A program made the translations under genes and the position numbers. A stretch of 37,349 nucleotides of DNA from assembly GCA_005888095.1 (NCBI GenBank), contig VBKF01000122.1, positions 1 to 37,349 on the forward strand. The letters run 5' to 3'. Source of the stretch: Deltaproteobacteria bacterium. GTDB taxonomy: Bacteria; Desulfobacterota; Binatia; DP-6. A model generated the notes under the pieces. That model was given only the letters and a program-made list of their open reading frames with translations. It did no database searches and was not told the DNA's origin. Below are positions 6,066-37,349 of the stretch, in pieces; positions within the stretch are counted from its first letter, which is position 1, and the number at the start of each line of letters is the position of its first letter.

Positions 6066-6170
6066 CCGGATGGCGATGCCACGTTCGATGCTCCCCCGAC
6101 TTCGACTTCCCGGATGAAACCGGCGACACCGCGCCTTGACCTTCTCCCCCCGGGGGTTCAAAAGACCGGG

Positions 6171-6728: not shown

Positions 6729-6738
6729 ATCGCCGGCC

Positions 6739-8478: not shown

Positions 8479-8497
8479 GCGGCCCGCCGACACCCGG

Positions 8498-9175
8498 GTG
8501 ACTGGTCAGTCGAAAAGAGAACGGTTCGTCGAGCGATACCTCGATCCCGCCAGTCGGCTCGGCGAGGTCCTGTTCGGCCTCATCATGGTCCTCGGGGCCA
8601 CCCTCACCGCCGGGCTGGACGTGCCGGAGGGCAAAGCGGGCGTCCGACGACTTCTGTACGCGGCGTTCGGCTGCAACATCGCCTGGGGGATCATCGATGG
8701 CGTCATGTACGTCATGAACTGCATGACCGTGCGCGCGGAAAAGGCGCGCCTCATCGACGCGATTCAGCGTGCCCCCGACGCACGCGCCGCGCTCGACGTC
8801 ATCCGCGGTGAGATAGAGCCGCGATTCGAGACGCTGACCGAGCCGGAAAATCGCGACGCACTATCCCGCTCGATACTCCGATACCTCGCCCGCGGGGAGG
8901 CGCCGAAAGTACGAGTCACCAGAGACGACCTCTACGGGGCGCTCGCCTCCTTCTGGCTCGTCTTCCTCTCGTGCCTGCCGGTGACCGTGCCGTTCCTCGT
9001 CATTTCGGAGCCGATCCGGGCGCTTCGGGTGTCGAACGCACTTCTGATCGTGATGCTCTTCACGGTCGGGCGGAAGTGGGCGCAGTATGCGCACACGAAT
9101 CGCCTGCTCGGCGGTCTCATCATGGTGGCCATCGGGCTCGCGCTGGTCGGGATCGCCGTGTGTCTGGGTGGCTGA
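8498..9175 (+). CDS. VIT1/CCC1-like integral membrane protein
   Basis: This 225-aa protein has about five membrane segments: VLFGLIMVLGATLTAGLD, LLYAAFGCNIAWGIIDGVMY, LASFWLVFLSCLPVTVPFLV, LRVSNALLIVMLFTVG and LLGGLIMVAIGLALVGIAV. A charged cytosolic stretch of about 90 residues follows the second one. This layout, and the Gly- and Asn-containing first two helices, match short bacterial relatives of vacuolar iron/manganese transporters. The canonical metal-binding glutamates of the plant VIT1 cytoplasmic domain are not obvious, so transport of iron or manganese is only a family-based suggestion. The start is GTG 8498, 19 bp after the DUF389 gene, so the pair is probably one operon. A hairpin follows the stop. 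Confidence 0.6.
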   Translation: MTGQSKRERFVERYLDPASRLGEVLFGLIMVLGATLTAGLDVPEGKAGVRRLLYAAFGCNIAWGIIDGVMYVMNCMTVRAEKARLIDAIQRAPDARAALDVIRGEIEPRFETLTEPENRDALSRSILRYLARGEAPKVRVTRDDLYGALASFWLVFLSCLPVTVPFLVISEPIRALRVSNALLIVMLFTVGRKWAQYAHTNRLLGGLIMVAIGLALVGIAVCLGG

Positions 9176-9191
9176 CCTTCCTCTTCACCGC

Positions 9192-9224
9192 GCCGTCGCG
9201 GCCGTGGGACTTCAACGCGACGGC
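9192..9224. terminator. Inverted repeat between convergent genes, possible bidirectional terminator
   Basis: GCCGTCGCG at 9192-9200 is perfectly complementary to CGCGACGGC at 9216-9224, giving a 9-bp GC-rich stem with a 15-base loop. It sits in the 116-bp gap between the convergent stops of the VIT-like gene and arcC. The position favours transcription termination in both directions. No T-run follows on either strand, so intrinsic termination is unproven. Confidence 0.4.
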
Positions 9225-9291
9225 GTGGGGGCGCGTGGGCGGGTTCTTCGTGGCGTCGGGCGGCGTGGCTGACCGAGTCTTGCAGCCTGCT

Positions 9292-10230
9292 TCAGCCGCC
9301 GTAGACAACGCCGGACTCCTTCGCGCTTACCGTCGTGCCAGCCTCGCCCGCGATGATCTTGCCCAGGTCCCCTAGTGCGCCAATGGCCGCCCGTTTTCCG
9401 GTTGCAGCGGCGAACCGGCACGCGGCCTCCACCTTCGGGCCCATCGACCCAGCCGCGAACGACATAGCCGATAGGGCGGACGGAGATGCGCGCCGGATGG
9501 CCTTCTTCGTCGGTTTCCCCCAGTCGACGTAGACCGCGTCGGCATCGGTCAGCATGATGAAAAGGTCGGCGTCGAGGTCACGCGCCAGCAGTTCCGAGGC
9601 CAGGTCCTTGTCGATGACACACTCGGCGCCAGCCAGCGTGCGGTGTTTGCCCGGCTCGTACATCGTCGGGATGCCGCCGCCGCCAGCGGCGATCACGATG
9701 GTGTTGTGTTCGAGCAGCCACTTGATCGGGCGCAACTCGAAGATGCGCTTGGGCTCCGGTGACGGCACCACGCGACGCCATTTGTCGCCATCCGGCTTGA
9801 AGACCCATTTCTTGTCCGCGGCGATTCGATCGGCTTCCTCCTTGAAGTACACTGGCCCGATGAACTTCGTCGGGTCGTGGAACGCGGGATCGCCAGGATC
9901 GACCTCGATCATCGTCAGCATCGTGGCGAAGGGACGTTCGAAGGGCAGCAGGTTCCCGAGCTCCTGCTCGATCATGTAGCCGATCATGCCTTCGGTCTCC
10001 GCTCCCAACACGTCGAGCGGATACGTGTCCACGTTGGTGTACGCCGCGCCTTGCAAGGCGAGGAGTCCGACCTGAGGGCCGTTGCCGTGGCCGACGACGA
10101 GCTGGTGTTCGGCCGCAACGGGTGCGAGCGCCCGCGCGGCGATCCGTACATTTCGCCGTTGGTTCTCGGCGGTCATCGGCTCGCCGCGCCGGAGGAGCGC
10201 ATTGCCGCCCAGGGCTGTGACGACCAACAT
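9292..10230 (-). CDS. arcC: Carbamate kinase
   Basis: This enzyme makes ATP from carbamoyl phosphate and ADP, the last step of the arginine deiminase pathway, in the cytosol. The protein is 312 aa, the usual family length. Diagnostic segments are TALGGNALL at the N-terminus, the substrate loop [20 protein letters not shown], the conserved [17 protein letters not shown] helix and [15 protein letters not shown]. The C-terminal [13 protein letters not shown] block is intact. A TTG four codons' width upstream (10236) can be read as a start, but the ATG at 10230, with GGAG eight bases before it, gives the standard N-terminus MLVVTALGG. It starts 2 bases after the ornithine carbamoyltransferase stop, so translational coupling is likely. 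It is the last gene of the long minus-strand arginine operon. Confidence 0.95.
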
Positions 10231-10232
10231 CG

Positions 10233-11237
10233 TCAATCTCCAAGTGTGGCGACGAGAATCGCCTTGATTGTGTGCATGCGGTTTTCCGCCTGTTCAAACG
10301 CGATGTTGAGCTCGGATTCGAACACTTCGTCGGTCACCTCAAGGCCATTGCGCAGGCCATGGCTCTCCGCGATCTGTTTACCGACAGTAGTTTCGGTGTC
10401 GTGGAACGCCGGCAGGCAATGCATGAACTTCACCTGTGCATTGCCGCTGGTATTCATCAGCTCCATGCTCACCTGGTACTTCAGCAGAAGGTCGATCCGT
10501 TCCTTCCAGACCTCCTTCGGCTCGCCCATCGACACCCAGACGTCGGTGTGCACGAAATCGACGCCCTCGACCGCCTGCTTCGGGTCGTCCGTGATGGTGA
10601 GTTTGGCCCCAGACTGCTTCTGGAGCCGCTGCGCGATAGCGATGTACTCGTCGGCCGGCCAGAGCTTTTTGGGTCCGCAGATGCGCACGTCCATGCCCGT
10701 CAGGCACCCCACGATCATCAGCGAGTGCCCCATGTTGTTCCGGGTATCCCCAAGGAACGCATATTTGATCTCGTGGATCGGCCGGTCGCTGTGCTCGCGC
10801 ATCGTCATCACGTCGGCCAGCATCTGGGTCGGGTGGTACTCGGCGGTGAGGCCGTTGAAGACCGGCACGCCGGCGTACTTCGCCAGCTGTTCGACGCCCT
10901 CCTGGCTGGCGCCGCGATACTCGATCGCGTCGTACATCCGGCCGAGGACGCGCGCCGTGTCCTTGAACGACTCCTTGTGGCCGATCTGCGAACCGGCTGG
11001 ATCCAGATACGTGACGTGGGCACCCTGGTCGTAGCAAGCCACTTCGAAAGCGCATCGCGTGCGCGTCGAAGTCTTTTCGAAGATCAGGCAAATTTCCTTG
11101 CCGTCGAGGTGCTTCTGCTCGGTGCGCGCGTATTTGGCGCGTTTGAGGTCTCGAGCCAGATCGAGCAGATAGCGAAACTCGCGCGGGGTGTAATCCTGCA
11201 CCGTCAGTAGCGAGCGGTTGCGTAGATTGAAGCTCAT
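10233..11237 (-). CDS. arcB: Ornithine carbamoyltransferase, catabolic
   Basis: In this context the enzyme works in the catabolic direction: citrulline plus phosphate gives ornithine plus carbamoyl phosphate. The protein is 334 aa, with the carbamoyl-phosphate loop STRTR at residues 57-61, the HPTQMLAD motif and the ornithine-side motif [10 protein letters not shown]. The ATG at 11237 is preceded by AGGAGG with ideal spacing; the frame continues upstream into the arginine deiminase gene but lacks homology there. The sequence closely resembles proteobacterial ArcB/ArgF proteins. The position between arginine deiminase and carbamate kinase supports the catabolic ArcB role. An anabolic ArgF role cannot be excluded from sequence. 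Confidence 0.93.
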
Positions 11238-11266
11238 GATCGCCTCCTGGACTGATATGTTCGGCG

Positions 11267-12493
11267 TCAATACGCCGGATCGCGCGCGATCGGACAGGTC
11301 ATGCAGTGTCCGCCTCCGCGGCCACGGCCGAGCTCTGAACCGCGCACCGTAATCACCTCGATGCCGGCCTTGCGCAGTAGTGTGTTCGTGTGCGTGTTGC
11401 GGTCGTAGCCGACCACGACGCCGGGCGCGAGCGCGACGACATTGTTGCCGTCGTCCCACTGTTCGCGCTGTGCCTCCCACGCATTACCGCCTGTTTCGAC
11501 CACGCGTAGCGTCTTCAGGCCCAGCGCCTGCTTGACCACCTCGAAGAGATGCCCCTTGTCCTCGTGGACCTCGATTCCCCCTTTTCCGTCGGGCCGTGCG
11601 CTGTAGCAGCGGATCTGATCGGCCACTTCGCGAAACGAGGTGCACAAGTCGCGGTCGCAAAAGGTGAATACGGTGTCCAGGTGCATGGCCGCACGGCTCT
11701 TTGGCATCAAGCAGCCGATCACACGCGTCGCCGCCTGGTGTTTGAAGAGTTCGGCCGCGACCTGAAACACTGCCTGTCGGGTGCTGCGCTCGCCCATGCC
11801 AATCAGCACGACGCCCTTGCCCACGGGCATGACGTCACCGCCTTCGAGGCTTGCGCCTCCGAAGGAGGCGTCGCTGTCGCCCCACCAGATCGTGAAGTCC
11901 GCACCCTTGAAGCGCGGATGGAACTTGTAGACCGCCCGCTGGAGCAGCGTTTCCGGTTTGCGCGCGGGCCAGTACATCGGGTTGCACGTGACGCCGTTGT
12001 AGATCCAGCAGGAGGGGTCGCGCTGGAACAGCGCGTTGGGCACCGGTGGGATGACGAAGTCCGTACCACCCAGCGCATCGGTCAGCATCGTCATCTGCTC
12101 GGACTGCGGGAGGTCGAGAAGTGCGATGCCGCCCATGAGGTGCTCTGCGAGCTTGGCTGCCGGCAGCTCGTCGAGCCATGCGCGGAGAATCGGCGCCAGG
12201 CCGGGCCCGACGTCATTGGCCGTAATGCGCCGGTCGAGGACCCAGGCACGCGCTTGCTTCTCGGCGAACGCCTCGGCCAGCAGGTCGTGCAGCTCCAGCA
12301 CCTCGACACCGCGCTCCCGCATTTTCAGCACGAAGTCGTAGTGGTCCTTCTGGGCTTCCTGCACCCAGAGGACGTCGTCGAACAGCAGATCCGCGCGGTT
12401 GCCAGGCGTCAGCCGCTGATGCGCAAGCCCGGGCCGGCAGACGAGCACGGTCCTGAGCGTTCCGATTTCGCTGTGAACTCCACATTTCTGCAT
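11267..12493 (-). CDS. arcA: Arginine deiminase
   Basis: The enzyme hydrolyses arginine to citrulline and ammonia. The protein is 408 aa, standard for the family. Visible hallmarks are [13 protein letters not shown] near the N-terminus, the substrate block [10 protein letters not shown] (a variant of the usual FTRDP), MHLDTVFTF with the catalytic His and Asp, the GGN and [12 protein letters not shown] segments, and [11 protein letters not shown] with the nucleophile Cys397. All catalytic positions appear present. The ATG at 12493 follows GGAGG by six bases. It lies 29 bp upstream of arcB and 39 bp downstream of the ornithine decarboxylase. No arcD-type arginine/ornithine antiporter is adjacent; the two antiporters earlier in the operon may fill that role. 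Confidence 0.95.
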
Positions 12494-12532
12494 GGTTGCC
12501 TCCGCTCGTCGACGCTCTTCGCGGCCTGCTGC

Positions 12533-14800
12533 CTACGACGCGTGCCCCTCCAGCTCCCTCACCACATAGGTATAGAAACGGACGCCGTCCCCTTCCGGCT
12601 CCTGATACACGCCCTGCACTTCGTACGAGAAGCCTGGGAAGCGGTTGCAGCCCTCCTCGAACGCGAGGAAGTAGTCAATCATCGGCTGCGCTTTCTCGTC
12701 GTAGCGCTCGCCGGGGACCACGATCCCGATGCCCGGCGGGTAGATGAGCGCCAGCGTACCGGCGATCCGACCCCGGACATTCGCCATGGGCACATAGTCC
12801 ACTTCCCCCGCGACCGTCGCCTGCACCGCGTCGCGCGCGCTCATTGCCTGCTCGGGGAAGGACTCGTAGCGGAAGCTCTTGCGTTGCAGATCCTTCACGT
12901 TCTTCTCGAGGAAGAAGCGGTGCATCTCGTCGCAGAGCTGTCTCAGGCCGTAACCCTCGTAGCGTTTGGCGTAGCGCGCAGCGACGCCAGGCACGACGCG
13001 CGCGAGCGGAGCATCCGCCTCGTACAGCGTCTTGAATCGCTCGAGCTCCGCCAGCAGGAACGCGACCTTTCCTTCCCCCACCGCTGGCGTCATGAGGAAA
13101 AGGATGCTGTTGAGATCGTTCTTCTCCGGAATGATGTGGTTTTCCCGCAGGTAGTTGGCGAGGACGGTCGCCGGCACTCCGGTGCGCTGGTAGTCGCCGC
13201 TCGCGTGGTCGATCCCCGGCGTGGTGAGCATGAGTTTGGTCGGGTCGACCATGGCCAGGTCCGGCCCGACATTGCGGTAGCCGTGCCAGGCCGCGTTCGG
13301 GTCGAGCTTCCAGTACCGCTGGTCGCGCGCCAGCTCATCGGTCGGCACGTCCTCCCAGCGGACGCTCCGGCCTTCGAACTCGACCATGTCCGGCACGAAT
13401 GGATCCAGGAAGCCGCCAAAGCGCTTGCGCACCGCCTTCCGAGCTTCGATGCCGAGCTTGATCATGTCGTCCCACAGCGCGTGGCCCGCCTTGTCGCGAT
13501 GCATCTGGGCGTTGACGTCGAGGCTGGAGAACAGTGGGTAGAACGGCGAGGTGGATACTTGCAGCATCACCATCTCGTTGAACCGCTTGTGGTTGACCCG
13601 GTAGGGCCGCCCGCGAATGTGCGCGTCACGCACGTGGATCTGCGAGGCCTGCGAGAAGCCGGCCAGCTGCTTGTGGGTCGACTGGGTGGCGATGATGCCC
13701 GGGTCTCGCTCCGTGAGCCCGAGGCCCATCGAGAAGTGGTCCTTCAACAGCGGGTGGAAGGCCCCGAAGCCGGCCCAGGCCTCGTCGAAGTGGATGTACT
13801 CGCAGAGGTGGCCGATCTTCTCGACGATCTTGCGGGCGTTGTAGATGGTGCCGTCGTAGGTGCATTGCTCGATGATGGCCACGCGGATCGGACGCTCACG
13901 CTCGGCCGCACCGCTGCCCTTGAGGAGCGGGTGTGCCGCGATCTTCGCGCGGATGGCTTTCTCGTCGAGCGCCGCCCAGTCGATCGGCCCGACCATGCCG
14001 AAGCCGTTGCGATCGGTCTCGAGATAGATCGGGATCGCCCCCGCGATCATCAACGCGCCCTGGTGGTTCGATTTATGGTTGTTGCGGTCGAAGAGAACGA
14101 TGTCGCCGTCGCGGAGAAGGCCCGTGTTGACCGCCTTGTTCGAGCTCGAAGTGCCGTTGAGCATGAAATACGTTCGATCGGCGCCGAAGATCCTGGCCGC
14201 CTCCTGCTGTGCCGACAACGCTGGACCCTCGCGGATCAGGAGATCTCCGAGCGATACCATCGCGTTGCAGATGTCGTCCCGGAAGATGTTCTCGCCCATG
14301 TGCTCGAAGAAGAGCCTCCCCACCGGGTGGCGTTTGAACATCTGGCCGCCCTGGTGACCGGGACAGGCCCAGGAGCGGTTTCCGTCGTAGTCGTACTCCA
14401 GCAGCTTGCCGAAGAACGGGGTGAGCAGCCCCTGCACGTACTCCTCCACAGAAGTCAGGAATGTCTTCTTATAGAAGTCTCGGGACTCGAGGCCGGCCAC
14501 CAGTACCCCTCTCACGTCCTGAAGGTAGGGCGCGTGAAACACGTCCGCGCTGCGTTCGCTGACGAGAAATACGGGCATCTCGAACCCTCGTTCATGGCGC
14601 GCAGCAAGGACGAGGCTGGCGTCGCTCCGGCCTACCACGATGGCACATAGGTCCGCTCCGTTGTGAATGGCCTCGCTCGCCTGGTCCGCGCCGACGGTGA
14701 CGGCGCGGAATCCAAGCTCCTTTTCGATGATCTCGGCGACGGGAGCGTACTCCTCACCCACGACAAGGACCTGAAAGTAGCGTTGAATCGGAATCTGCAT
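12533..14800 (-). CDS. speF: Ornithine decarboxylase, inducible fold-type I
   Basis: This is a PLP enzyme that removes CO2 from ornithine to give putrescine, consuming a proton. The protein is 755 aa. An N-terminal wing domain (residues 1-115) precedes the PLP domain. That domain contains CPGHQGGQMFKRHPVG, YFMLNGTSSSNKAV, FDRNNHKSNH, FDEAWAGFGAFHP and the Schiff-base lysine K377 in STHKQLAGFSQASQIH. The 'NGTSSSNK', 'NNHKSNH' and 'HKQ.aGFSQ.SQIH' forms match E. coli SpeC/SpeF rather than lysine or arginine decarboxylases. A C-terminal domain of about 150 residues follows. The cluster arrangement (with PotE, downstream of arginine catabolism) favours the degradative SpeF role over biosynthetic SpeC. 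The start ATG 14800 has AGAGGA upstream, and the gene is separated from the antiporter gene by 16 bp. Confidence 0.88.
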   Translation of the reverse strand: MQIPIQRYFQVLVVGEEYAPVAEIIEKELGFRAVTVGADQASEAIHNGADLCAIVVGRSDASLVLAARHERGFEMPVFLVSERSADVFHAPYLQDVRGVLVAGLESRDFYKKTFLTSVEEYVQGLLTPFFGKLLEYDYDGNRSWACPGHQGGQMFKRHPVGRLFFEHMGENIFRDDICNAMVSLGDLLIREGPALSAQQEAARIFGADRTYFMLNGTSSSNKAVNTGLLRDGDIVLFDRNNHKSNHQGALMIAGAIPIYLETDRNGFGMVGPIDWAALDEKAIRAKIAAHPLLKGSGAAERERPIRVAIIEQCTYDGTIYNARKIVEKIGHLCEYIHFDEAWAGFGAFHPLLKDHFSMGLGLTERDPGIIATQSTHKQLAGFSQASQIHVRDAHIRGRPYRVNHKRFNEMVMLQVSTSPFYPLFSSLDVNAQMHRDKAGHALWDDMIKLGIEARKAVRKRFGGFLDPFVPDMVEFEGRSVRWEDVPTDELARDQRYWKLDPNAAWHGYRNVGPDLAMVDPTKLMLTTPGIDHASGDYQRTGVPATVLANYLRENHIIPEKNDLNSILFLMTPAVGEGKVAFLLAELERFKTLYEADAPLARVVPGVAARYAKRYEGYGLRQLCDEMHRFFLEKNVKDLQRKSFRYESFPEQAMSARDAVQATVAGEVDYVPMANVRGRIAGTLALIYPPGIGIVVPGERYDEKAQPMIDYFLAFEEGCNRFPGFSYEVQGVYQEPEGDGVRFYTYVVRELEGHAS

Positions 14801-14816
14801 TGATCGCGTCCTCTTC

Positions 14817-16193
14817 TCAGTTCGGATCTGCCTCGGAGAGCGTCCCGCCCGGAACCGAGGCCGCGCTGCGCAGGAAGACCCAGACCGGACCCGCCAGCAG
14901 GATCAGGATCAGCGACCACATGCCTGCTCCTGCCCCGGCGCCGTAGATCGTGCCCATCGAGAAGACGAACGCGACGATGGCGACGGGCATGAAGGGGCCG
15001 ATGCGCAACGCGCGCGAGACCGGCCGACGGTTGACGTACAGGACCGCCTCGACCACGGAGCAAAAGACGTAGGGGACCATGGCGGCGTCGGTCGATAGGT
15101 TGACGATCAGGTCGTAGAAGGCGACCAGGGCAGATGTCCCGGAGGTCGAGAGGAGAACGAGAAGCGTCGACAGACCCACCGAGATCAGAAGGCCGCGGGC
15201 GGGGACGCCCCGCGCCGAGAGGTGACCGAAGACCGGCGGCATGGCGCCTTCGCGTGCCGCCGCCATGGGGACCTGAGAGAGCATCAGCGTCCAGCCGTTG
15301 AGGGCGCCCAGGGACGAGACGATCGCCGCCAGCGCGATCACCGTGGCGGCCCAGCCGCCCCACATGACGCGCGCGGCGTCGGCGAACGGGGCGGAGGAGC
15401 GCATCAACGTCTCCCGCGGGATCACTCCCATCACGACGGAGGTGCCGAGGATGTAGATCAGCGCCGAGATGAAGGTGCCGAGCACCGTGGCGCGGGGAAT
15501 GGTGCGGCGCGGATCGATGACGTCGCCGGCCGGCACCGTCGCCGATTCGATCCCGAGGAAGGCGAACATCGTGAGAGGTGCCGTGGCGGCCAGCGCGCTG
15601 AAGAAGGGCTGGCCGCTCGGGTTGAGCGTCTCGAAGCTGTGCCAGTCCACCCAGAAGAGTCCGAGGACGGCGATCGATATGAACGGCACCAGCTTCGTGA
15701 AGGTCGTCGCCACCTGGAAGAGTCCGGCCTCCTTGACGCCGCGGAGATTCACGAGCGCAACCCCCCACATGGCGCCGAGCGCGATGCCGATGGCGAGGAT
15801 CCGGTGGTCCACCAGCCCGGGAACGAGCGCTGCGAGGTACCCCACGAGCGCCGCCGCCATGGCGGGTAGCGAGGCCCAGATGGAGATCCAGTAGCCCCAC
15901 GCGACGAGGAAGCCGGCGAAGCGACCAAAACCCATCCGCGTGTACGCATAGGGGCCGCCGGTGGCCGGTGCGATGCGCGCCAGGCGCGCGAAGACCATAC
16001 CGAGGCAGATCGCGCCAATCGCCATCACCGCCCACCCGATCAGCGCCGTCGTGCCGAAGCGCGCCAGCGCCGAGGGGGCGATGAAGAATCCCGAGCCGAC
16101 CATGTTGCCGATCACGAGAGCCGTACAGGTGGTGAGCCCGAGGCTCCGTTGCCCGGTCTCGTCGCCCGGCGCTGTCGGGGTCACGCCGTTCAT
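14817..16193 (-). CDS. AdiC-like APC-family amino acid antiporter
   Basis: This 458-aa inner-membrane protein of the APC superfamily has about twelve spans. It resembles the arginine/agmatine antiporter AdiC: GNMVGSGFFIAP in span 1, ATGGPYAYTRMGFG in span 3, FAFLGIESATVPAGDV in span 6, SSLGALNGWTLMLSQ in span 8, and GAGMWSLILILL near the end. By alignment by eye, the AdiC pH-sensor Glu208 and Trp293 are kept. The AdiC Trp202 position is Phe, so substrate preference may differ. The ATG at 16193 follows TAAGG; the frame runs on to 16367 but that part has no family similarity. Genes on both sides suggest exchange of arginine, agmatine, ornithine or putrescine. The exact substrate is unproven. 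Confidence 0.8.
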   Translation of the reverse strand: MNGVTPTAPGDETGQRSLGLTTCTALVIGNMVGSGFFIAPSALARFGTTALIGWAVMAIGAICLGMVFARLARIAPATGGPYAYTRMGFGRFAGFLVAWGYWISIWASLPAMAAALVGYLAALVPGLVDHRILAIGIALGAMWGVALVNLRGVKEAGLFQVATTFTKLVPFISIAVLGLFWVDWHSFETLNPSGQPFFSALAATAPLTMFAFLGIESATVPAGDVIDPRRTIPRATVLGTFISALIYILGTSVVMGVIPRETLMRSSAPFADAARVMWGGWAATVIALAAIVSSLGALNGWTLMLSQVPMAAAREGAMPPVFGHLSARGVPARGLLISVGLSTLLVLLSTSGTSALVAFYDLIVNLSTDAAMVPYVFCSVVEAVLYVNRRPVSRALRIGPFMPVAIVAFVFSMGTIYGAGAGAGMWSLILILLAGPVWVFLRSAASVPGGTLSEADPN

Positions 16194-16206
16194 GGCCTTA
16201 CGCGGG

Positions 16207-17148
16207 TCATTCCGGCAGCGCGACGAAGCGGAAGAACGCCAGGACGTCCGCGTCGGGCTCCCCAAAGAAGCTCTTGTAGATGTCCCCGATCTCGCCAGAG
16301 CGGTAGAGGCGGCTGAGGGTGCGATCCACGAGCAGGCGGAAATCCTCGTCGCCCCGCGCGAAGGCAAGGGCGAGAGGCTCGTAGGTGAACTCGCGTTCGA
16401 GGACGATCAGATCGTCCGCCGATGGACCCCGCGTCGCCGCGTCCAGAAGGATCGCCCGGTCTCCGAACAGCACGTCCGAGCGCCGCCCCAATACCCGGTC
16501 GATGCCTTCCCGGTAGCTCTGCACCGTGACGATCTCTGCGTTGACGTTGAGCTCCTCTCGCCTCTTGGCAAGCCAGGATTTCGTGGTTGTCCCCGCCAGG
16601 GCCGAGAGCACCCGCTTCTCGAGGATCTGTCCCAGCGATGCGCGCCAGCGCGGCCGGTACGGCGGCTCCCGTCCCTCCAGCACCGCCTTGAGGCGCTCGG
16701 GGCTGTCCTTTCGCAGGAGCGCCCCGATGCCGCTCGGGAAGGTCGGAATCGAGAAGTCGACTGTCCTTCTCTGCTCCAGCGTGGCCGTAGCGGCACCGCA
16801 GAGCAGGTCGATCCTCCCCTCCTTCACTGCGTCGAAACGATCGTCACTCCCGACCTTCACGTACTCGACCGCGATCTGGGCGAGACCCGGCTCGGCCTTC
16901 ACTGCGTCCGCGATCCTCTGGCAGAGCACCACGGAGTAGCCCGCGGCTTTCCCCGACTCCTCGTACGAGAAGGGTCGCGCGTCGATCCGATAGCCCAATT
17001 TCAGCTTGCCGAGGTCCAGAACCCGCTCCAAGGTACCCGCCCGCGCCGACTCGGCGGCCCCGAACAGGAAGAGCGCCACCGCGACCGGTATGGCGGCGGC
17101 CATCGTGAGGTCGCGCCGGCGAAGTAGCAGTGATCGTCGAAGCTGCAT
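16207..17148 (-). CDS. Amino-acid substrate-binding protein (SBP family 3)
   Basis: This 313-aa periplasmic protein has a signal peptide (AAAIPVAVALFLFGAAESARA). Family-3 solute-binding features are clear: KLKLGYRIDARPFSYEE, AGYSVVLCQRIADAVK, DRFDAVKEGRIDLLCGAATAT, RTVDFSIPTFPSGIGALL, and the C-terminal LVDRTLSRLYRSGEIGDIYKS. It resembles the GltI-type glutamate/aspartate binding proteins, but ligand contacts cannot be assigned by eye. GGAGG lies seven bases before the ATG at 17148. There are no ABC permease or ATPase genes nearby. Instead the gene lies between two antiporter genes with gaps of only 13 bp on each side. It may feed an unlinked ABC transporter, or act as a ligand collector or sensor for this operon. 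That role is inference. Confidence 0.85.
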   Translation of the reverse strand: MQLRRSLLLRRRDLTMAAAIPVAVALFLFGAAESARAGTLERVLDLGKLKLGYRIDARPFSYEESGKAAGYSVVLCQRIADAVKAEPGLAQIAVEYVKVGSDDRFDAVKEGRIDLLCGAATATLEQRRTVDFSIPTFPSGIGALLRKDSPERLKAVLEGREPPYRPRWRASLGQILEKRVLSALAGTTTKSWLAKRREELNVNAEIVTVQSYREGIDRVLGRRSDVLFGDRAILLDAATRGPSADDLIVLEREFTYEPLALAFARGDEDFRLLVDRTLSRLYRSGEIGDIYKSFFGEPDADVLAFFRFVALPE

Positions 17149-17161
17149 GATGCGTCCTCCG

Positions 17162-18508
17162 TCACGCGGCTCGGCCCGCTGCGGCCTGCACGGTCGTCGT
17201 CCCACTCACACCGAAGCGGGGAGCGAGGAAGCCGAAAATCACGAAGCCGATGCCCATCACCACCGTGCCGCCGAGCACCGCATCCGCACCCGACGCGTAG
17301 ATCGCATAGACGCTGTAGAGCATCGCGACCATCGCCACCACGACGTTCCGCCGATACGTCGACTCCGGCACGGCCGCTTTCCGCATCATCTCGATCAAGG
17401 CGGAGAGCGAGATGATGTACGGAATCACGTTGGTGACCACGGCCAGGTTGACCAGCGCACTGAATTGCTCGCTGAGCGTCGGCGAGATGGTCGAGAGTGC
17501 CATCAGGGACTGGACGCCTCCCATGACGATCATCCCGGTGATCGGCGCGCTGTTCTGGGTCACCTTCGCGAAGAACGCGGGGAACATGCGATCTTCGGCC
17601 GCCGATTTCGCGGTTTGGGCGATGGTGAACTGCCAGCCCAGCAGCGAGCCGAGACAGGCCATCGCCGCCAGGGCCATGATGATCGAGCCCACTGTCGGAT
17701 TGAACATCCGGGCGTAGACCAGACCGAACGGGCCCGTGGACTTCGCCAGGTCGGCGTTCGGCACGATTCCCTGAATTACCGTGGTCGAGAGGACGTAGAT
17801 CACGGCAGCCCCGAGCGTCCCGAACATACAGGCAAGAGGCACGTTCCGCTTCGGGTTCTCGACGGCGTCCGAGTTCTGCGCTGCCGACTCCATCCCTAGG
17901 AAGGCCCACAGCGTGAGCGCGATGCTCGAGCCCATCCCCTTCAGCAGACTGAGCCCTTGCGGATTCCAGGCGGCGGCGAAGGTGTCCCTGCTGAACCAGA
18001 GCCAGCCAACGACCGAGAGACCGGCGACCGGAATGATGACGCCCCACACGGTTATTGCGCCGATACGGCCGGTCACCTTGGGGCCCCCGAAGTTTGCGAC
18101 CGTGGTCAGCCAGATGAGCGCGATCACCCCGATGCAGGTGGCGATCGGCGTCGACGAGAGCCAGGGGGAGAACGTCGCCAGATAACCCACGGCGGAGATC
18201 GCGATCGCCACGTTCCCGATCGCCAGCGAGAAGAAGTAGAGGTAGAATACCATGAAGAAGCCCGATTTGCCGTAGGCTTCCTCGGCGTACGCCGACATCC
18301 CCCCCGGGCGCTGATTGAGGACACCGGCCTGAGCAAACCCGTAGGCGATGGCCATCGAGCCCACCGCGGTCACGACCCAGGAAAGGAGGGAGATCGCCCC
18401 GACCTGAGCCATGTTCGTCGGGAGCATGATGATCCCGGAACCCATCATGTTGACGGCGACGATGACCGTCAGCTGGATCAGGTTCATCTTCTTTCGGGGC
18501 TCGTCCAT
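17162..18508 (-). CDS. potE: Putrescine/ornithine antiporter
   Basis: This 448-aa APC-family antiporter should exchange external ornithine for internal putrescine across the inner membrane. Similarity to E. coli PotE is high along its length: VNMMGSGIIMLPTNMAQVGA, NVAIAISAVGYLATF, TVANFGGPKVTGRIGAITVW, SSIALTLWAFLGMESA and CLGSLLGWQFTIAQTAKSA. The residues equivalent to E. coli PotE Trp201, Glu207 and Trp292, known to be important for transport, are in place in LWAFLGMES and GWQF. The start at 18508 has GGGAGA upstream. The gene sits 29 bp after the arginine decarboxylase, not next to the ornithine decarboxylase as in E. coli speF-potE. The matching decarboxylase is two genes downstream in the same operon. 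Confidence 0.92.
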   Translation of the reverse strand: MDEPRKKMNLIQLTVIVAVNMMGSGIIMLPTNMAQVGAISLLSWVVTAVGSMAIAYGFAQAGVLNQRPGGMSAYAEEAYGKSGFFMVFYLYFFSLAIGNVAIAISAVGYLATFSPWLSSTPIATCIGVIALIWLTTVANFGGPKVTGRIGAITVWGVIIPVAGLSVVGWLWFSRDTFAAAWNPQGLSLLKGMGSSIALTLWAFLGMESAAQNSDAVENPKRNVPLACMFGTLGAAVIYVLSTTVIQGIVPNADLAKSTGPFGLVYARMFNPTVGSIIMALAAMACLGSLLGWQFTIAQTAKSAAEDRMFPAFFAKVTQNSAPITGMIVMGGVQSLMALSTISPTLSEQFSALVNLAVVTNVIPYIISLSALIEMMRKAAVPESTYRRNVVVAMVAMLYSVYAIYASGADAVLGGTVVMGIGFVIFGFLAPRFGVSGTTTVQAAAGRAA

Positions 18509-18537
18509 GGCGTCTCCCTGGTTCGTCGCCGCGACGT

Positions 18538-20847
18538 TCAGGTCTTCAAGCAGTAGAGGGCATAGTAGGGGCGGCCGTTCTCGTCGGTCTTCACTTCGAC
18601 ACCGTGGGTGTCGTGCCCGAAGCCGGGGAACCTCGCGTCGAAGGCCTCGAGGCCCAGCAGGAAGTCGCCGACGGCGCGGGTTGCCTCGCCGAAGCGTTCA
18701 CCCGGCATCAGCAGCGGGATTCCCGGCGGATAGGGAACGACCTGCACCGCGAGCACGCGGCCCTGGAGCTTCGCGGCGGGCACCTGCTCCACCTCGCGGT
18801 GGACGAGGCGCGCGAAGGTCTCCCGCGGTGTCAGCACGGGCTCGGGAAGGCTGCTGAAGGCGCCGTCGAGATTGCCGAGGATATTGTGCTCCCGGATGGC
18901 GGCATGCATCTCCGCGGCGAGCTCGCGGAGCCCGAGCCGGGCATACCGCTCGGGATGATCGGCGACGAGGCCGGAGAGTGCGTTGGCGAGCGGCGCGTTC
19001 GCGTCGTAGAGCTCTTTGAAGCGCATGAACGCGGCGACGAGCGAGCCCCACTTGCCCCTGGTGATGCCGATCGAGAAGAGGGTGAGGATCGAGTAGGGCT
19101 CGGTCTTCTCCACCACGATGCCCTGCGTGGCGAGGAACGCCGTCACGATGGCTGCGGGAATCCCTTTCTTCTCCAGGACGCCGTCCGGCCCGATGCCCGG
19201 AGTCAACGTGGTCACCTTGATCGGGTCGAGCATGCAGTAGCGGCGGCCCAGGTCGCCGAACCCGTGCCAGCCCTGCCCCGGCCGCAGGAGCCATGCGTCG
19301 CTCGAGGTCGCGAGCAGGTTGGGATCGGCCTCGAGGAAAGCCTCGCCTTCCACCTCGTCGGCCTGCCAGCTCTGGAACCACCAATCGCCCGACTTGCGAC
19401 GCTCGAGATCCCGGCCGATGCGCAGCATGGCCTTCCGGAAGTCGATTGCCTCGCGGATGCACTCGTCCGTGAGCGCCGGGCCCGCGTCGTCCATCATCTT
19501 CGCGGAGACGTCCGTGGACGCGATGATACTGTACTGCGGCGAGGTGGAGGTGTGCATCATGAACGCTTCGTTGAAGAGCGCGGGCTTGACCGGGATCCGA
19601 CCCGAACGGATGTGGATCATCGAGGCCTGGGAGAGTGCGGCGAGGAGCTTGTGCGTCGAGTGTGTCACCGTCACGGTCGCGTCGTCCGGCGACCGTTGGC
19701 CGCGGTGCATCCCGTAGCGGCCCTCGTAGATGGGATTGAACCGCGCGTACGCGTACCACGCCTCGTCGTAGTGGATGCGGTCGACGCTCTGGCTCAAGAG
19801 CCGCGTCGTGTGCTCGACGTCGTAGCAGAGGCCGTCGTAGGTGGAATTCGTGAGCACCGCGAGCATGGGCTTGCGCGGCGCGCCTTTCACGAGAGGGCTC
19901 TCTGCGAGCTTCCGTCGCAGCATCTCGGGCTCGATCTCGCTGGCAGGCACCGGACCGATCACGCCGCGCGCGTTGCGCCGTGGCTTCAGGTACACCGGGA
20001 TGGCGCCGCTCATGTTGAGCGCGTAGTTGAGGGACTTGTGACAGTTGCGGTCGACCAGGACGATGTCGTCGTCCGCCACCGCCGAGTGCAGGATGATCTC
20101 GTTGCTCGCCGAGCTCCCCCCCATCGAGAAGAATGTGTGGTCGGCGCCGAAAACGCGCGCGGCGTAGCGCTCGGCTTCGGCCACGGGCCCCGAGTGGTCG
20201 TTCAAGGAACCGAGCTCTCCCACCGAAACGGAGAGGTCGGATCGCAGCATCTGCTCGCCGTAGAAGCCGAGAAAGGCGCGGCCGACGGCCGTCTTCATGA
20301 AGGCCGTACCGCCCGTGTGCCCGGGCGTGTGCCACGAGTACTCATGGGTGTCGGCGAAGTTCGCGAGCTTCCCGAAGAAGGGCGGCAGCACGGTGTCGAG
20401 ATAGCGCCGCGCCGCCGCGTCGATGCGTCCGGCGATGAAAGCAGCGCTGTCCTCGGGCACCCAGATGTAGCCCTCGACCTGCTCCACGATCTCGAGCGGC
20501 ACCTGGCGGGTAGCCCCCCGACGCGCGCCGAGAAGCACGGGCAAGGATGCCGCCTGCTGCCGGATGCGCCCGAGGATCCGCTTCGTCTGCGCGAGGGTCT
20601 CGTCGCTCGCCGCCGCCATTCCCCAGCCGAGCACCACGCAGGAGAGCGCTGGGTGCGACTCGACGGCGGCCTCCGCATCGTCCAGCGAGTGGGCGAGCAC
20701 GACGGGGCGTCCGAGCGCCGCGAGCGCCGCCCTGATCTCCTTCACGCTGCGCCCGATCGCCGAGTCCTCGTCGACGCGGGCGCCAACGACGAGCACCGGA
20801 AAGCCGGAGGCGAGTGCGGCCGGCATCGGCGTGTCGCTGTACGACAT
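18538..20847 (-). CDS. adiA: Arginine decarboxylase, AdiA-type (Orn/Lys/Arg decarboxylase family)
   Basis: This 769-aa PLP enzyme is predicted to convert arginine to agmatine plus CO2, consuming a proton. The N-terminal wing domain (1-140) precedes SWHTPGHTGGTAFMKTAVGR, LGSLNDHSGPVAEAERYAAR, SMGGSSASN, VDRNCHKSLN, IHYDEAWYAYARFNP and the PLP lysine K400 in THSTHKLLAALSQASMIH. The 'LGSLNDHSG', 'DRNCHKS' and 'THKLLAA.SQASMIH' forms match AdiA better than SpeC/SpeF, although a lysine decarboxylase cannot be fully excluded by eye. The start at 20847 has GAGGAG upstream; the longer frame to 20922 is unlikely. No agmatinase or agmatine deiminase is visible, so agmatine is probably exported, which points to acid resistance. 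Confidence 0.85.
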   Translation of the reverse strand: MSYSDTPMPAALASGFPVLVVGARVDEDSAIGRSVKEIRAALAALGRPVVLAHSLDDAEAAVESHPALSCVVLGWGMAAASDETLAQTKRILGRIRQQAASLPVLLGARRGATRQVPLEIVEQVEGYIWVPEDSAAFIAGRIDAAARRYLDTVLPPFFGKLANFADTHEYSWHTPGHTGGTAFMKTAVGRAFLGFYGEQMLRSDLSVSVGELGSLNDHSGPVAEAERYAARVFGADHTFFSMGGSSASNEIILHSAVADDDIVLVDRNCHKSLNYALNMSGAIPVYLKPRRNARGVIGPVPASEIEPEMLRRKLAESPLVKGAPRKPMLAVLTNSTYDGLCYDVEHTTRLLSQSVDRIHYDEAWYAYARFNPIYEGRYGMHRGQRSPDDATVTVTHSTHKLLAALSQASMIHIRSGRIPVKPALFNEAFMMHTSTSPQYSIIASTDVSAKMMDDAGPALTDECIREAIDFRKAMLRIGRDLERRKSGDWWFQSWQADEVEGEAFLEADPNLLATSSDAWLLRPGQGWHGFGDLGRRYCMLDPIKVTTLTPGIGPDGVLEKKGIPAAIVTAFLATQGIVVEKTEPYSILTLFSIGITRGKWGSLVAAFMRFKELYDANAPLANALSGLVADHPERYARLGLRELAAEMHAAIREHNILGNLDGAFSSLPEPVLTPRETFARLVHREVEQVPAAKLQGRVLAVQVVPYPPGIPLLMPGERFGEATRAVGDFLLGLEAFDARFPGFGHDTHGVEVKTDENGRPYYALYCLKT

Positions 20848-20934
20848 GGCTGGCACTCCTCGGATCCGTCCTTCGACTTCAGCCCTCTGAGCGGCGTCGG
20901 CCGGCTCCGGCCCACGGGCCACCGGGGGCCGACA

Positions 20935-22725
20935 TCAGAAGGTGAAGCTCATGAACAGATAGCCGTTGATCCACGTCGATGATCCGTTCACGGCCTCGCG
21001 AAAGCCCTTGTTGGGATTCGCCATCGAACAGGCCGCGGTGACCGACCACCAGTTCGTCAGCGCAACATCGAAAATTAGGTTGACCTCATCCGCGAGGGAG
21101 CGATCCACGCGCGAGGGGGTGAGGCCGAAGTCCTGGTTCCGATTGTTGAGCAGGAACTTGTAGTAGATCAGGTTGATCGCCAGGATTTCGTTCGGCTTGA
21201 GCTGCAGACGCACCTGGTGGGAGTTCAGGTTGCTGTTGGAGAGGACGTACTCTCCCAGGAGCTCTCCCTGGAACCAGGAGCCCCACTCCGGGAGCCCGGT
21301 GAAGAGGGAGTCGAATCCCCGCGTCCCGCCGCCGCTGAACGACGCATACCGGTAGCTGAGCTGAGGCTTCCAGGGCAGGGGCGACAGCTGGTACGCCGGT
21401 GTGACGTACCAGCCGTTGGCCTCCGAGAGGCCGGACGACTTCGAGTTGTTCTCGTGGACGAAGGACGTCTTGTAGCTGAGGTCGGGAAGCGCCGGCAGCG
21501 GAGTCGCTTCGTGATAGACCTGGATGCCGTCCATGCCGTCGCGAGAAGGTGTGTCCGAGTGGTAGATGTCGAAGTACATGACGCCGACCCTCAGGTGCTT
21601 CATGATCAGGTCATCGATCGTGTAGTCGACCCGCCCCGCGCCGAGCCGGGTATTGGTATCCGGGTCGTCGTTGTACTTGAGGTGGACTCCCTCGACCGTG
21701 AGGCCCTTGTAGTTGAGCCTGACGATCCCCGTTTCGCGGAACGCCTTGCGCGGGGAGAGCCAGTTCGCGCCGCGGTGGGTGCTGTCCTGGCCTCCATCCC
21801 AGAAGAGCAGGCCGTCGAAGACCTGGTAGTTCTGGTTCCCGGCACTGATCTCGATGAAGTCGGAGCCGAGCTTCGGGAAGAGATCGCCGGATTTCCACGC
21901 GAGGTAGGCGCTCTCCAGCGTGTACTTGCTGACGGTGTCCTTCGAGCCGTTCGTCACCGGCCCATCGGGCCCGCTCGTCGTGAGAGAGTAGACGCCGCTG
22001 ACCCTCCCCTGCAGGGTTCCGTAGTCCCCGAGCGGGTAGCGGGCGTTGAGGCCCACCTCGTTCGAGTGCTCCAGCCAGCTGTCGGCCTTCTCCACGGGCC
22101 CGAACGACCACCGGCCGTTGAAGCCGGCGTTGTGCGAGGCGGCGGCATACATCTGGAGGTTCAGGGTGGGACGGAGAAAGAGCGGGCCGGTCTTCACCTC
22201 CCCGAAGCCGAGCGTCTTCGGAAGTCGAGCGCTCGCGTCGGCCGGCGGTCCGCCCATCTCGCCGACGCTGAGCGTGATCCCGCGCGGGCCGATGCCGACC
22301 CCGAAGCCCGCGGCCTTCGCGTCGATGACGATGCGCACGCCCTTGTCGTTGCGCATGACGATCGTCCCCGTGCCCTGGCCGAAGGCCGCTCCCGAGGCGA
22401 GGGCCGTGTAGTCGCCGCTCAGGTCCTCTATCTTGGCGAGGCCGAAGATCCGGCCGGTCCCTTCGAGCGAGCTGGTCCCGAGGCCGCCGAGCACGAAGCC
22501 GTCGACGCGTACGGGGTAGGTCCTGCCCTGGAACTCCACCGTCGATGCGCCCCACAAGAAGCCGATGCCGACTGAGGCCGACCGCCCGCGGAAGGTGATC
22601 GTCGCGTCGGCGGCAGCGTGCTCACCGTCGGGCGCGGAGCGTTCCGCAGCCGGCGCCGACGCGGCGACGAGGCAGATCGCGGCGGCAGCCGCGCAGAGCA
22701 CGGAGCGCGGCGAGGAGCCTCTCAT
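20935..22725 (-). CDS. Outer-membrane barrel protein with N-terminal EipA/DUF1134-like module
   Basis: This 596-aa protein has a signal peptide (SVLCAAAAAICLVAASAPAA). Residues about 38-145 form a small beta-rich module: SVGIGFLWGASTVEFQGRTY, GLGTSSLEGTGRIFGLAKIE, then DKGVRIVIDAKAAGFGVGIG. This pattern recalls single-domain secreted proteins of the EipA/DUF1134-like kind ('tl.fqGk.Ypf.v.Gl...vG.s...a.G.vynL'), an assignment made from memory. The remaining 430 residues look like a large outer-membrane barrel (AFRETGIVRLNYKGL, GAGRVDYTIDDLIMKHLRVG, NEILAINLIYYKFLLNN, ending NGYLFMSFTF with terminal Phe), perhaps an alginate-export/OprD-like channel. The start overlaps the stop of the upstream gene by 4 bases. 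Its place directly upstream of the decarboxylases suggests it could admit arginine or release polyamines, which is inference. Confidence 0.7.
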   Translation of the reverse strand: MRGSSPRSVLCAAAAAICLVAASAPAAERSAPDGEHAAADATITFRGRSASVGIGFLWGASTVEFQGRTYPVRVDGFVLGGLGTSSLEGTGRIFGLAKIEDLSGDYTALASGAAFGQGTGTIVMRNDKGVRIVIDAKAAGFGVGIGPRGITLSVGEMGGPPADASARLPKTLGFGEVKTGPLFLRPTLNLQMYAAASHNAGFNGRWSFGPVEKADSWLEHSNEVGLNARYPLGDYGTLQGRVSGVYSLTTSGPDGPVTNGSKDTVSKYTLESAYLAWKSGDLFPKLGSDFIEISAGNQNYQVFDGLLFWDGGQDSTHRGANWLSPRKAFRETGIVRLNYKGLTVEGVHLKYNDDPDTNTRLGAGRVDYTIDDLIMKHLRVGVMYFDIYHSDTPSRDGMDGIQVYHEATPLPALPDLSYKTSFVHENNSKSSGLSEANGWYVTPAYQLSPLPWKPQLSYRYASFSGGGTRGFDSLFTGLPEWGSWFQGELLGEYVLSNSNLNSHQVRLQLKPNEILAINLIYYKFLLNNRNQDFGLTPSRVDRSLADEVNLIFDVALTNWWSVTAACSMANPNKGFREAVNGSSTWINGYLFMSFTF

Positions 22726-23204
22726 TCGATCCCGGCCCCCGGCTGGCCGCCGGAAGACTTCGGACTCATCTGCCTCGACACCTCGATCTCGAGCCGACCC
22801 GCCACGAGCGGGAGCGGTGGTTCGAAGCGAATCGTCACACCGGAGGCGTTTCGCAGGGCCCTGTCGGAGGGCCGGAAGGTGCCCTCGATGTCGCCCGGGC
22901 GCAGGAGTCCACCGACGGACCCCACCGTGTTTACCGGCTCCGCGACGCCGCGTAGCGTCAGGAGATAGTCCTGACCCCGAAAGCTCATCACGCCCTCGAC
23001 GAGGCGACCGCCGAGGCTCGAGCCTGACGTCGAGGACGAGACTGTGATCGTCGCCACGGGCGCTTCGTCCGCGCGTGCGGCTGTGGTCAGCACGAGCGCG
23101 AGGAGAACGGCACTCGCAACAAATCGTCCTCGATCTCGGCAAACAAACGCCTTCACGCGCGACCTGACGTGGGACGGAGCATCAGGGTTTCGACTGGTAG
23201 GCAT
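22722..23204 (-). CDS. Small secreted protein related to the barrel protein's N-terminal module
   Basis: Counting from ATG 23204 gives 160 aa with a signal peptide (FVASAVLLALVLTTAARADE). The mature part begins ATITVSSSTSGSSLGGRLVE and continues VMSFRGQDYLLTLRG, GSVGGLLRPGDIEGTF and NASGVTIRFEPPLPL. The arrangement (ATIT, a Gly-rich strand, f.F(R/Q)G(Q/R).Y..t(L/V).G, then a 'G.i.g.' turn and a VTI/VRI strand) parallels the N-terminal module of the next gene, so the two are probably paralogous domains. Its stop overlaps the barrel gene start by 4 bases (22722-22725), showing translational coupling. The longer frame to 23399 is Arg-rich and has no homology; ATG 23222 is another possible start. 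It looks like the first gene of the arginine operon. The function is unknown. Confidence 0.65.
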   Translation of the reverse strand: MPTSRNPDAPSHVRSRVKAFVCRDRGRFVASAVLLALVLTTAARADEAPVATITVSSSTSGSSLGGRLVEGVMSFRGQDYLLTLRGVAEPVNTVGSVGGLLRPGDIEGTFRPSDRALRNASGVTIRFEPPLPLVAGRLEIEVSRQMSPKSSGGQPGAGIE

Positions 23205-23482
23205 TGTCCTCGATGACGCCATCAAACTTCGGGGGCGACGATGAACCTCGAAGCATTGAAGTCCTCCCGGCTCCCCTGTCCTCGGATACGTCGCCATTCC
23301 CGAAATGTCTTGCCTTTTTGCGCCAACGCGACTTCGGCAGATCCGGGACGTCTGTCGTCGAGGACCGTCAGGTACATCTGCCCGCTTACTCACCAGCATG
23401 GTGGACCGTTTCGTCGCGCGGCTGATGAGCCTCTACTCGCAGCAGCGGAACGACTGAGCGGACCTTCGCTGGCATCACGACC
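23205..23482 (-). other. Intergenic region between RND pump gene and arginine operon
   Basis: This 278-bp gap between two minus-strand operons must hold the promoter of the arginine operon if it is transcribed separately. On the minus strand a TTGGCGC-AAAAA-GGCAAGA sequence (near 23310-23325) looks superficially like a sigma-54 element, but the GG-to-GC spacing is one base short. I see no convincing ArgR box, leader peptide or riboswitch. A 19-codon plus-strand ORF (23399-23458) is present, but nothing supports its translation. Confidence 0.3.
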
Positions 23483-35996: not shown

Positions 35997-36077
35997 TGCG
36001 TCTCCTTGAACCTGCTCGGCGCAAGATGCCAGGCCTGGTGTCCCGGGACCTCGGCCGCGCACACGCCGGAATCAGGA

Positions 36078-36491: not shown

Positions 36492-36494
36492 GCT

Positions 36495-37349
<855 letters not shown>

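Follow-up and report, generated by a model that had tools for sequence, protein, structure and literature searches.

What would bring a complete arginine deiminase pathway, two amino acid decarboxylases, two permeases, a periplasmic binding protein and an outer-membrane barrel into one tight run of genes in a member of the Desulfobacterota, and does such a run work as one system? The run in question occupies positions 9292–23204 on the minus strand of contig VBKF01000122.1 (C122) of a Deltaproteobacteria bacterium (Binatia; DP-6). The window analyzed here is this entire contig, 37,349 bases long, from a 5.46 Mb draft genome that is 100% complete and 2.37% contaminated. We favor, with a probability of roughly 60%, the reading that the run is a horizontally acquired, operon-like cluster that breaks down arginine and other basic amino acids by the route proposed below. 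The combination is not unique but a variant of a known rhizobial cluster, and its relatives draw attention to one pair of genes, an antiporter and a binding protein, that may work together.

Gene content and the proposed route

An earlier note, made from the sequence alone, had described ten same-strand genes separated by 2–90 bp with several overlaps. The ten minus-strand open reading frames (ORFs) are confirmed, nine of them with Pfam or NCBIfam matches, and the tight spacing holds, at 2–87 bp; with the starts chosen here, however, there is a single overlap, of 4 bp. The identities given to the genes and their joint arrangement are likewise supported, by the family matches and by the recurrence of the same parts together in other genomes.

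The run ends with the deiminase genes: ArcA (arginine deiminase; 11267–12493; 408 residues; Pfam ADI 443.7 bits; TIGR01078 498.8, cut-off 489.1), ArcB (ornithine carbamoyltransferase; 10233–11237; 334 residues; PRK01713 566.7 bits, cut-off 545) and ArcC (carbamate kinase; 9292–10230; 312 residues; TIGR00746 393.1 bits, cut-off 358.25). All three exceed curated NCBIfam cut-offs, which makes the arginine deiminase pathway complete by that standard, and the C-terminus of ArcA holds GGGHCMTC, which presumably contains the catalytic Cys. The order is that of arcABC(D) operons, from which the window differs in that decarboxylases and PotE are added and that no protein exceeds the ArcD cut-off (TIGR03810: 192.6 for the AdiC-like permease and 143.2 for PotE, cut-off 591); another permease may serve in place of ArcD.

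Preceding ArcA is SpeF (12533–14800; 755 residues), an ornithine decarboxylase by PRK13578 (870.6 bits, cut-off 794) whose nearest solved structures are the ornithine decarboxylase 1ord/1c4k, and which does not reach the narrower model TIGR04301 (849.9, cut-off 1310). PotE (17162–18508; 448 residues) is assigned as a putrescine/ornithine antiporter by PRK10655 (688.2, cut-off 409) and TIGR04299 (572, cut-off 560), and it is identical to E. coli PotE at 16 of 16 positions that line the AdiC substrate site. SpeF and PotE are not adjacent in the window, where two genes stand between them: SBP (16207–17148; 313 residues), an orphan periplasmic binding protein of the SBP_bac_3 family (PF00497, 81.3 bits), and a 458-residue AdiC-like permease of the amino acid–polyamine–organocation (APC) type (14817–16193). 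The best NCBIfam model of this permease is AdiC PRK10644 (309.3 bits, below the cut-off of 574), and it has Leu at AdiC Asn101 and Phe at AdiC Trp202, so it does not qualify as an AdiC equivalog. Upstream of PotE lies AdcL (18538–20847; 769 residues; OKR_DC_1 487.8 bits), an AdiA/LdcA-type basic amino acid decarboxylase. Both AdcL and the AdiC-like permease are clear family members that score below every NCBIfam cut-off shown. The run is headed by SEC (22722–23204), a small protein whose N terminus looks signal-like by eye and the one ORF with neither a Pfam nor an NCBIfam match, and OMP (20935–22725; 596 residues), a predicted outer-membrane barrel of the alginate-export family (PF13372, 32.1 bits, cut-off 25.2) with an extra N-terminal stretch. 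SEC and OMP share the 4-bp overlap; the remaining gaps are 87 bp (OMP–AdcL), 29 bp (AdcL–PotE), 13 bp (PotE–SBP), 13 bp (SBP–AdiC-like permease), 16 bp (AdiC-like permease–SpeF), 39 bp (SpeF–ArcA), 29 bp (ArcA–ArcB) and 2 bp (ArcB–ArcC), and the genes would be read as one transcript.

In the route that we propose, basic amino acids would enter through the barrel and be bound in the periplasm by SBP, and PotE and the AdiC-like permease would exchange them across the inner membrane. ArcA and ArcB would convert arginine to ornithine, ammonia and carbamoyl phosphate, from which ArcC would make one ATP; SpeF would decarboxylate the ornithine to putrescine, which PotE would export in exchange for ornithine, and AdcL would make agmatine or cadaverine. 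The net yield would be ATP, ammonia and the consumption of protons, useful under acid or low oxygen.

One step that is weakened is the direct conversion of arginine to agmatine, raised as a possibility in the earlier note. Among the reference enzymes compared, AdcL is closest to 6q6i (47% identity, with 44% to E. coli AdiA and 40% to CadA), a structure titled 'biodegradative arginine decarboxylase' in the PDB list that we take to be the P. aeruginosa lysine decarboxylase LdcA. Its score against the AdiA model PRK15029, 801.6, is below the cut-off of 1167, and at the position of CadA Glu526 it carries Glu, as do the lysine and ornithine enzymes compared, whereas the Adc structures 2vyc, 5xx1 and 7p9b have Thr. 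In CadA, docking predicts that this Glu contacts lysine (PMC5607190). AdcL could therefore act on lysine to yield cadaverine, leaving the deiminase route as the only user of arginine, a reading that we place just short of even odds. Set against it, AdcL scores the AdiA model above the LdcC model (628.5), and the decarboxylase tree places it on the AdiA side, with less than full support (84/97). Glu at the same position also occurs in AdiA-side relatives, including one from P. caribensis (51% identity) that scores 974.7 against AdiA and 621 against LdcC, which weakens the argument from Glu526.

The absence of an agmatinase had been taken to suggest that agmatine is exported. The absence stands, in that the arginase/agmatinase family PF00491 has no match in the whole genome; the export does not follow from it, because contig C90 carries an agmatine deiminase-like (AguA) gene beside an N-carbamoylputrescine amidase-like (AguB) gene, both below strict cut-offs.

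Relatives of the cluster and signs of transfer

Eight enzyme and transport parts (ArcA, ArcB, ArcC, AdiC-like permease, AdiA/LdcA-type decarboxylase, ornithine decarboxylase, PotE and orphan SBP) lie within 20 kb in the window (9292–20847). All eight recur within 17.2 kb on pSymA of Sinorhizobium meliloti 1021, within 13.6 kb on pRL1 of Rhizobium leguminosarum and within 13.4 kb in a Rhodospirillum metagenome-assembled genome (MAG), the last with a more distant permease (~41%), while Paraburkholderia plasmids hold seven of the eight in two cases and six in one. The cluster is thus beyond chance. The earlier note had held that known systems usually keep these enzyme sets separate, which is true of the E. 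coli K-12 stretches read: there the AdiA–AdiC, SpeF–PotE and CadBA pairs, whose decarboxylases and antiporters are homologous to those of the window, each have a locus of their own, and neither arcABC nor a binding protein appears in the stretches read around them. It is not true of the two rhizobial plasmids. The S. meliloti stretch corresponds to SMa0680–SMa0697, with gene numbers matched to the unannotated 1021 record by gene kind and by the names used in the papers, and both plasmids also have PPK2 and AI-2E genes nearby. The two differ from the window in that their genes lie on both strands rather than one, that no barrel or SEC match appears in the stretches read, and that both decarboxylases belong to other subclades.

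Among plasmid records, for which we took the best 60 of 401 for ArcA, the best 60 of 79 for PotE and the best 60 of 79 for SBP, PotE lies within 13.1 kb of ArcA in all 47 that are common to the ArcA and PotE lists; most of these records come from strains of Sinorhizobium and Rhizobium, and they do not count as independent. Thirteen of the 60 ArcA records fall outside the PotE list. At least one of these (NZ_CP141214) has PotE and SBP, and at least one, from Azospirillum brasilense, has arcDABC and no PotE in the 29 kb read. On that Azospirillum plasmid, a gene annotated as a porin (L056:18919–20142) follows arcDABC and an NhaC-type antiporter, so that an outer-membrane gene is found near a deiminase cluster there as well.

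PotE, SBP and ArcABC look orthologous across these clusters. The AdiC-like permease is 52–53% identical to those of S. meliloti and R. leguminosarum and 58% to that of G1161, a genome from the class of Dyella; all four share a residue signature, with one position Met or Ile, from which the MAG permease differs. The decarboxylases behave otherwise. In the tree, SpeF of the window falls together with the enzymes of the Rhodospirillum MAG and Dyella and with one from the Rhizobiales, apart from a subclade of S. meliloti, R. leguminosarum and P. caribensis ornithine decarboxylases, and the AdcL proteins of S. meliloti, R. leguminosarum and the MAG group with 6q6i, whereas the window AdcL does not. 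By these trees, decarboxylase functions appear to be kept while different enzyme lineages fill the slots, which suggests that selection acted on the combination, as opposed to a single operon staying frozen.

How did the cluster reach this phylum? The genome has no match for small-subunit (16S) rRNA, and RpoB was used instead, with poorly filled columns removed and a single locus as the window row. The tree sets the window's phylum apart from four Pseudomonadota rows (100/100), of which it shows only that the window does not group with them; the rows of G151 and G431 were joined from match pieces that overlap, which makes them too long, at 2186 and 2102 letters. RpoB is 59–62% identical to that of the two alphaproteobacterial genomes compared, while ArcB is 82–85% identical to its five nearest alphaproteobacterial loci (56–70% to the others read) and PotE is 76–83% identical to those of S. 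meliloti, R. leguminosarum and the MAG. Among 297 sampled genomes of the phylum, ArcA was found in one, the window's own (E 1e-60), and the SpeF query matched in 2 of 145 relatives, the second being the same-genus genome G002, where the match is the AdcL gene. In the ArcA tree the window is sister to G1161 (100/99) inside a clade of seven rows, the rest of which belong either to named Pseudomonadota or to genomes sampled from the classes of these, and the same seven form a clade in the ArcB tree (100/100), with an interior that does not resolve. Since the window's phylum is not Pseudomonadota by RpoB and its ArcA falls inside a Pseudomonadota clade, the module bears the signs of horizontal acquisition and has probably moved across phyla into its compact, one-direction form.

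A PotE–SBP query matched in 20 of 369 genomes from the class of Dyella, of which the neighborhoods of G1161 and G432 were read, and another genome search matched 19, of which G431, G472 and G775 were read. G1161 has a one-direction run of nine genes, OMP-AdcL-SpeF-PotE-SBP-ArcA-ArcB-ArcC-permease, with gaps of at most ~50 bp by the listed ORF starts; rhizobia and the MAG use both strands. The nine parts of G1161, like those of the window, begin with the barrel, and identities are high for ArcA (84%), ArcB (84%), ArcC (79%) and PotE (70%); the positions of SpeF and the permease are changed, SEC has no match, and AdcL and SpeF are only 45% and 53% identical. The G1161 barrel is without the N-terminal stretch and matches that of the window over 391 residues (BLASTP, 32%, E 6e-50). 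A homologous barrel at the head of that run argues that the barrel is part of the system. SEC precedes the barrel in four other genomes of the window's class (G002, G006, G100 and G135; SEC stretches in L033, L035, L104:9543–9923 and L105:2481–2717), and a 30% barrel in G009 has no SEC beside it. The OMP query matched in 21 of 145 genomes, with the match confined to the N-terminal stretch (about residues 2–180) in 15 of the 21, and an AlphaFold2 model of OMP is of low confidence (mean predicted local distance difference test score 54.8). SEC and the N-terminal stretch of OMP look alike by eye, but at a BLASTP E value of 0.30 we claim no kinship between them.

PotE and its probable binding-protein partner

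Binding proteins are familiar partners of ATP-binding cassette (ABC) and tripartite ATP-independent periplasmic (TRAP) transporters. Here, the partner may be a different one. SBP adjoins PotE in 10 of 10 loci read in which PotE is at least 70% identical to that of the window (the window, G431, S. meliloti 1021 and ml28, R. leguminosarum, G1161, G432, P. caribensis MWAP64 and 852011, and P. phymatum), and the two starts are less than 2 kb apart in all 51 plasmid records common to the PotE and SBP lists. At 53–54% PotE identity, SBP is adjacent in one of six loci (present in G472; absent in L008, L010, L011, L018 and G775). Rhizobium sp. Root1334 shows an SBP_bac_3 protein next to a different permease, AdiC-like and 41% identical to E. 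coli AdiC. The decarboxylase and antiporter genes of the SpeF–PotE type are in turn adjacent in G1161 and on the rhizobial plasmids read.

In three Paraburkholderia plasmids (P. caribensis MWAP64 and 852011 and P. phymatum STM815; L059:16370–18616, L131:8989–11250 and L132:8965–11253), PotE and SBP form one open frame of 748–750 residues that matches both Pfam families. The frames of 852011 and STM815 are ~69% identical to that of MWAP64, so the joint frame has persisted through divergence and does not stem from one sequencing error. In R. leguminosarum, a single stop codon separates in-frame PotE and SBP open stretches. Between the two parts of the MWAP64 protein lies a hydrophobic segment (443–461) that matches the signal segment of the separate SBP (14–32 in the window protein, its one N-terminal hydrophobic segment) and that ends, by eye, in the signal-peptidase-like AHA. 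The joint product may thus be cut after export; if uncut, this segment would be a thirteenth membrane segment, added to the twelve that we take to be the APC topology, and would hold SBP in the periplasm.

No amino-acid ABC permease or ATPase was found among the 31 window ORFs scanned with Pfam or the eight flanking ORFs scanned in three relatives, and none is annotated beside SBP in S. meliloti ml28 or R. leguminosarum; a sugar ABC set lies ~21 kb from SBP in S. meliloti. Two loci speak against exclusive pairing. The 67% identical SBP of G005 (L036:9016–9975) has PPK2 and, directly adjoining, an MlaE-type permease as neighbors, and neither PotE nor a decarboxylase was matched across the 12.6 kb read; the MAG carries a TRAP DctM permease ~3.5 kb from its SBP. 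With respect to ligand, the residue aligned with the Arg that binds an alpha-carboxylate in the ancestral SBP 5t0w is Gln in the window, Gly in one joint protein and Arg in five relatives, and an invariant Arg stands next to this position in all seven.

We conclude that PotE and SBP likely work together, and we hypothesize that SBP feeds or gates the exchanger. A bolder version, in which SBP is a periplasmic receptor in permanent pairing with an APC-type exchanger of this PotE subfamily, and in Paraburkholderia is translated as one protein with it, would make the two a binding-protein-coupled antiporter that with the barrel would give a complete envelope-spanning path. We consider this distinctly unlikely; the signal-like segment could be cleaved, and the G005 SBP lies beside an MlaE-type permease.

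Physiological role and competing readings

A combined role in acid resistance and energy supply has been put forward before for S. meliloti (PMC10385936, PMC7268258) and is plausible, by analogy, for the cluster of the window. The main role could instead be low-oxygen energy and nitrogen metabolism, with ATP from carbamate kinase, and not acid resistance, which we hold as a tentative and somewhat improbable alternative. In S. meliloti, FixJ is reported to activate arcA1BC and both decarboxylase genes, SMa0680 and SMa0682 (PMC13327599); the odc1 mutant is reported to be like wild type at pH 5.5 (PMC10385936), a point against an acid role; and arcABC and the antiporter SMa0684 are described as essential in symbiosis by TnSeq (PMC7268258). 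On the other side, E. coli decarboxylases paired with exchangers are described as serving acid resistance (PMC8503589, PMC10385936), the S. meliloti papers propose acid tolerance, and no FixK/FNR-like site lies ahead of the window cluster. Expression of SMa0680 and SMa0682 is reported as raised in a tolC mutant (PMC2912261) and as not significantly changed in a putrescine-accumulating tme mutant (PMC4960864).

Might the cluster be an accreted stress island for low-oxygen, acid and phosphate stress, in which arcABC, the decarboxylases and the envelope genes are not one pathway? The S. meliloti and R. leguminosarum clusters, like that of the window, have homologues of PPK2, AI-2E, VIT1 or SulP close by, modules are reordered and inverted between genomes, and the window decarboxylases are of other subclades than those of S. 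meliloti. We nevertheless consider such an island unlikely, given the tight one-direction packing in two phyla, the constant PotE–SBP adjacency among the plasmid records and the FixJ activation of arcA1BC together with both decarboxylase genes noted above. Ornithine also connects ArcB with SpeF and PotE, a link of known chemistry.

Downstream, the run is bounded by a convergent plus-strand gene (8498–9175), and the other-strand neighbors at 6114–9175 are SH3-domain, DUF389 and VIT1-like genes. Upstream, its head lies 260–278 bp, depending on the choice of SEC start, past the stop of a same-strand AcrB-family pump gene (PF00873). That pump comes with membrane-fusion and outer-membrane components, and on the same side lie a DUF3313 gene, genes for SulP, PPK2 and an AI-2E transporter, and the F-type ATP synthase genes atpC and atpD, the latter cut by the contig end. 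At 35172–37349, atpD–atpC are followed directly by PPK2, then SulP and the AI-2E transporter. In G002, one contig end has the same order as the window, with MexB 91% (664 residues), SEC 94%, OMP 97% and AdcL 95% identical, and another holds the final 117 residues of ArcC at 91%; within the genus, the interior at ~9650–19250 is present only in the window's own assembly. On contig C98 of G002 (L034), the ArcC end adjoins distant (30–36%) homologues of DUF3313, SulP and PPK2 and not VIT1, so the downstream flank differs. The window spans an entire 37 kb contig from a draft genome, and the interior of the run is not seen in G002. An assembly artefact, the danger raised in the earlier note, or one of binning is nevertheless very improbable, with both edges found in G002 at 91–97% identity and the gene junctions found again in other genomes.

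Several observations weigh against the reading that we prefer, a horizontally acquired, operon-like catabolic cluster. The GC content of the cluster (0.60–0.69) is not separated from that of the flanks (0.64–0.71) and does not mark it as foreign; composition neither supports nor refutes transfer. The both-strand layout in S. meliloti, R. leguminosarum and the MAG means that one operon is not the general rule, and among nine ArcA-bearing genomes, from a sample of 385 drawn from the class of G431, decarboxylases lie within ~10 kb of arcABC only in G431, the genome on which the sample was centered. In G100 and G135, of the window's class, the stretches read contain SEC–OMP but none of the other cluster genes, and in G100 the pair adjoins SH3–DUF389–VIT1 homologues; the two may thus be separate from the rest of the system, and we read the barrel type as one probably used in more than one setting. 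In the head region (23205–23482, minus strand), the 278 bp that separate the stop of the pump gene from the start of SEC and where a promoter would be expected, neither a sigma-70-like nor a FixK/FNR-like site was found. FixK/FNR boxes with two mismatches number eight in the window against 3.5 expected, a count reached in 4 of 100 shuffles, and sigma-70 and terminator scans of 9100–23600 fell below the shuffled mean.

On the preferred reading, a whole catabolic and transport module has moved into a phylum in which ArcA was otherwise not met among the genomes sampled. What is new here is the PotE–SBP adjacency and joint frame, and the pairing of exchanger and binding protein is the part most worth experiment. 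If true, a PotE-type antiporter stably paired with a binding protein, or joined to one in a single polypeptide, would represent another kind of transporter, and with the barrel the operon would provide a complete envelope-spanning path for the entry of basic amino acids and the exit of polyamines. An orphan gene would also gain a role by this, in a region of a symbiotic plasmid where arcABC and the antiporter are reported to be essential for symbiosis (PMC7268258).

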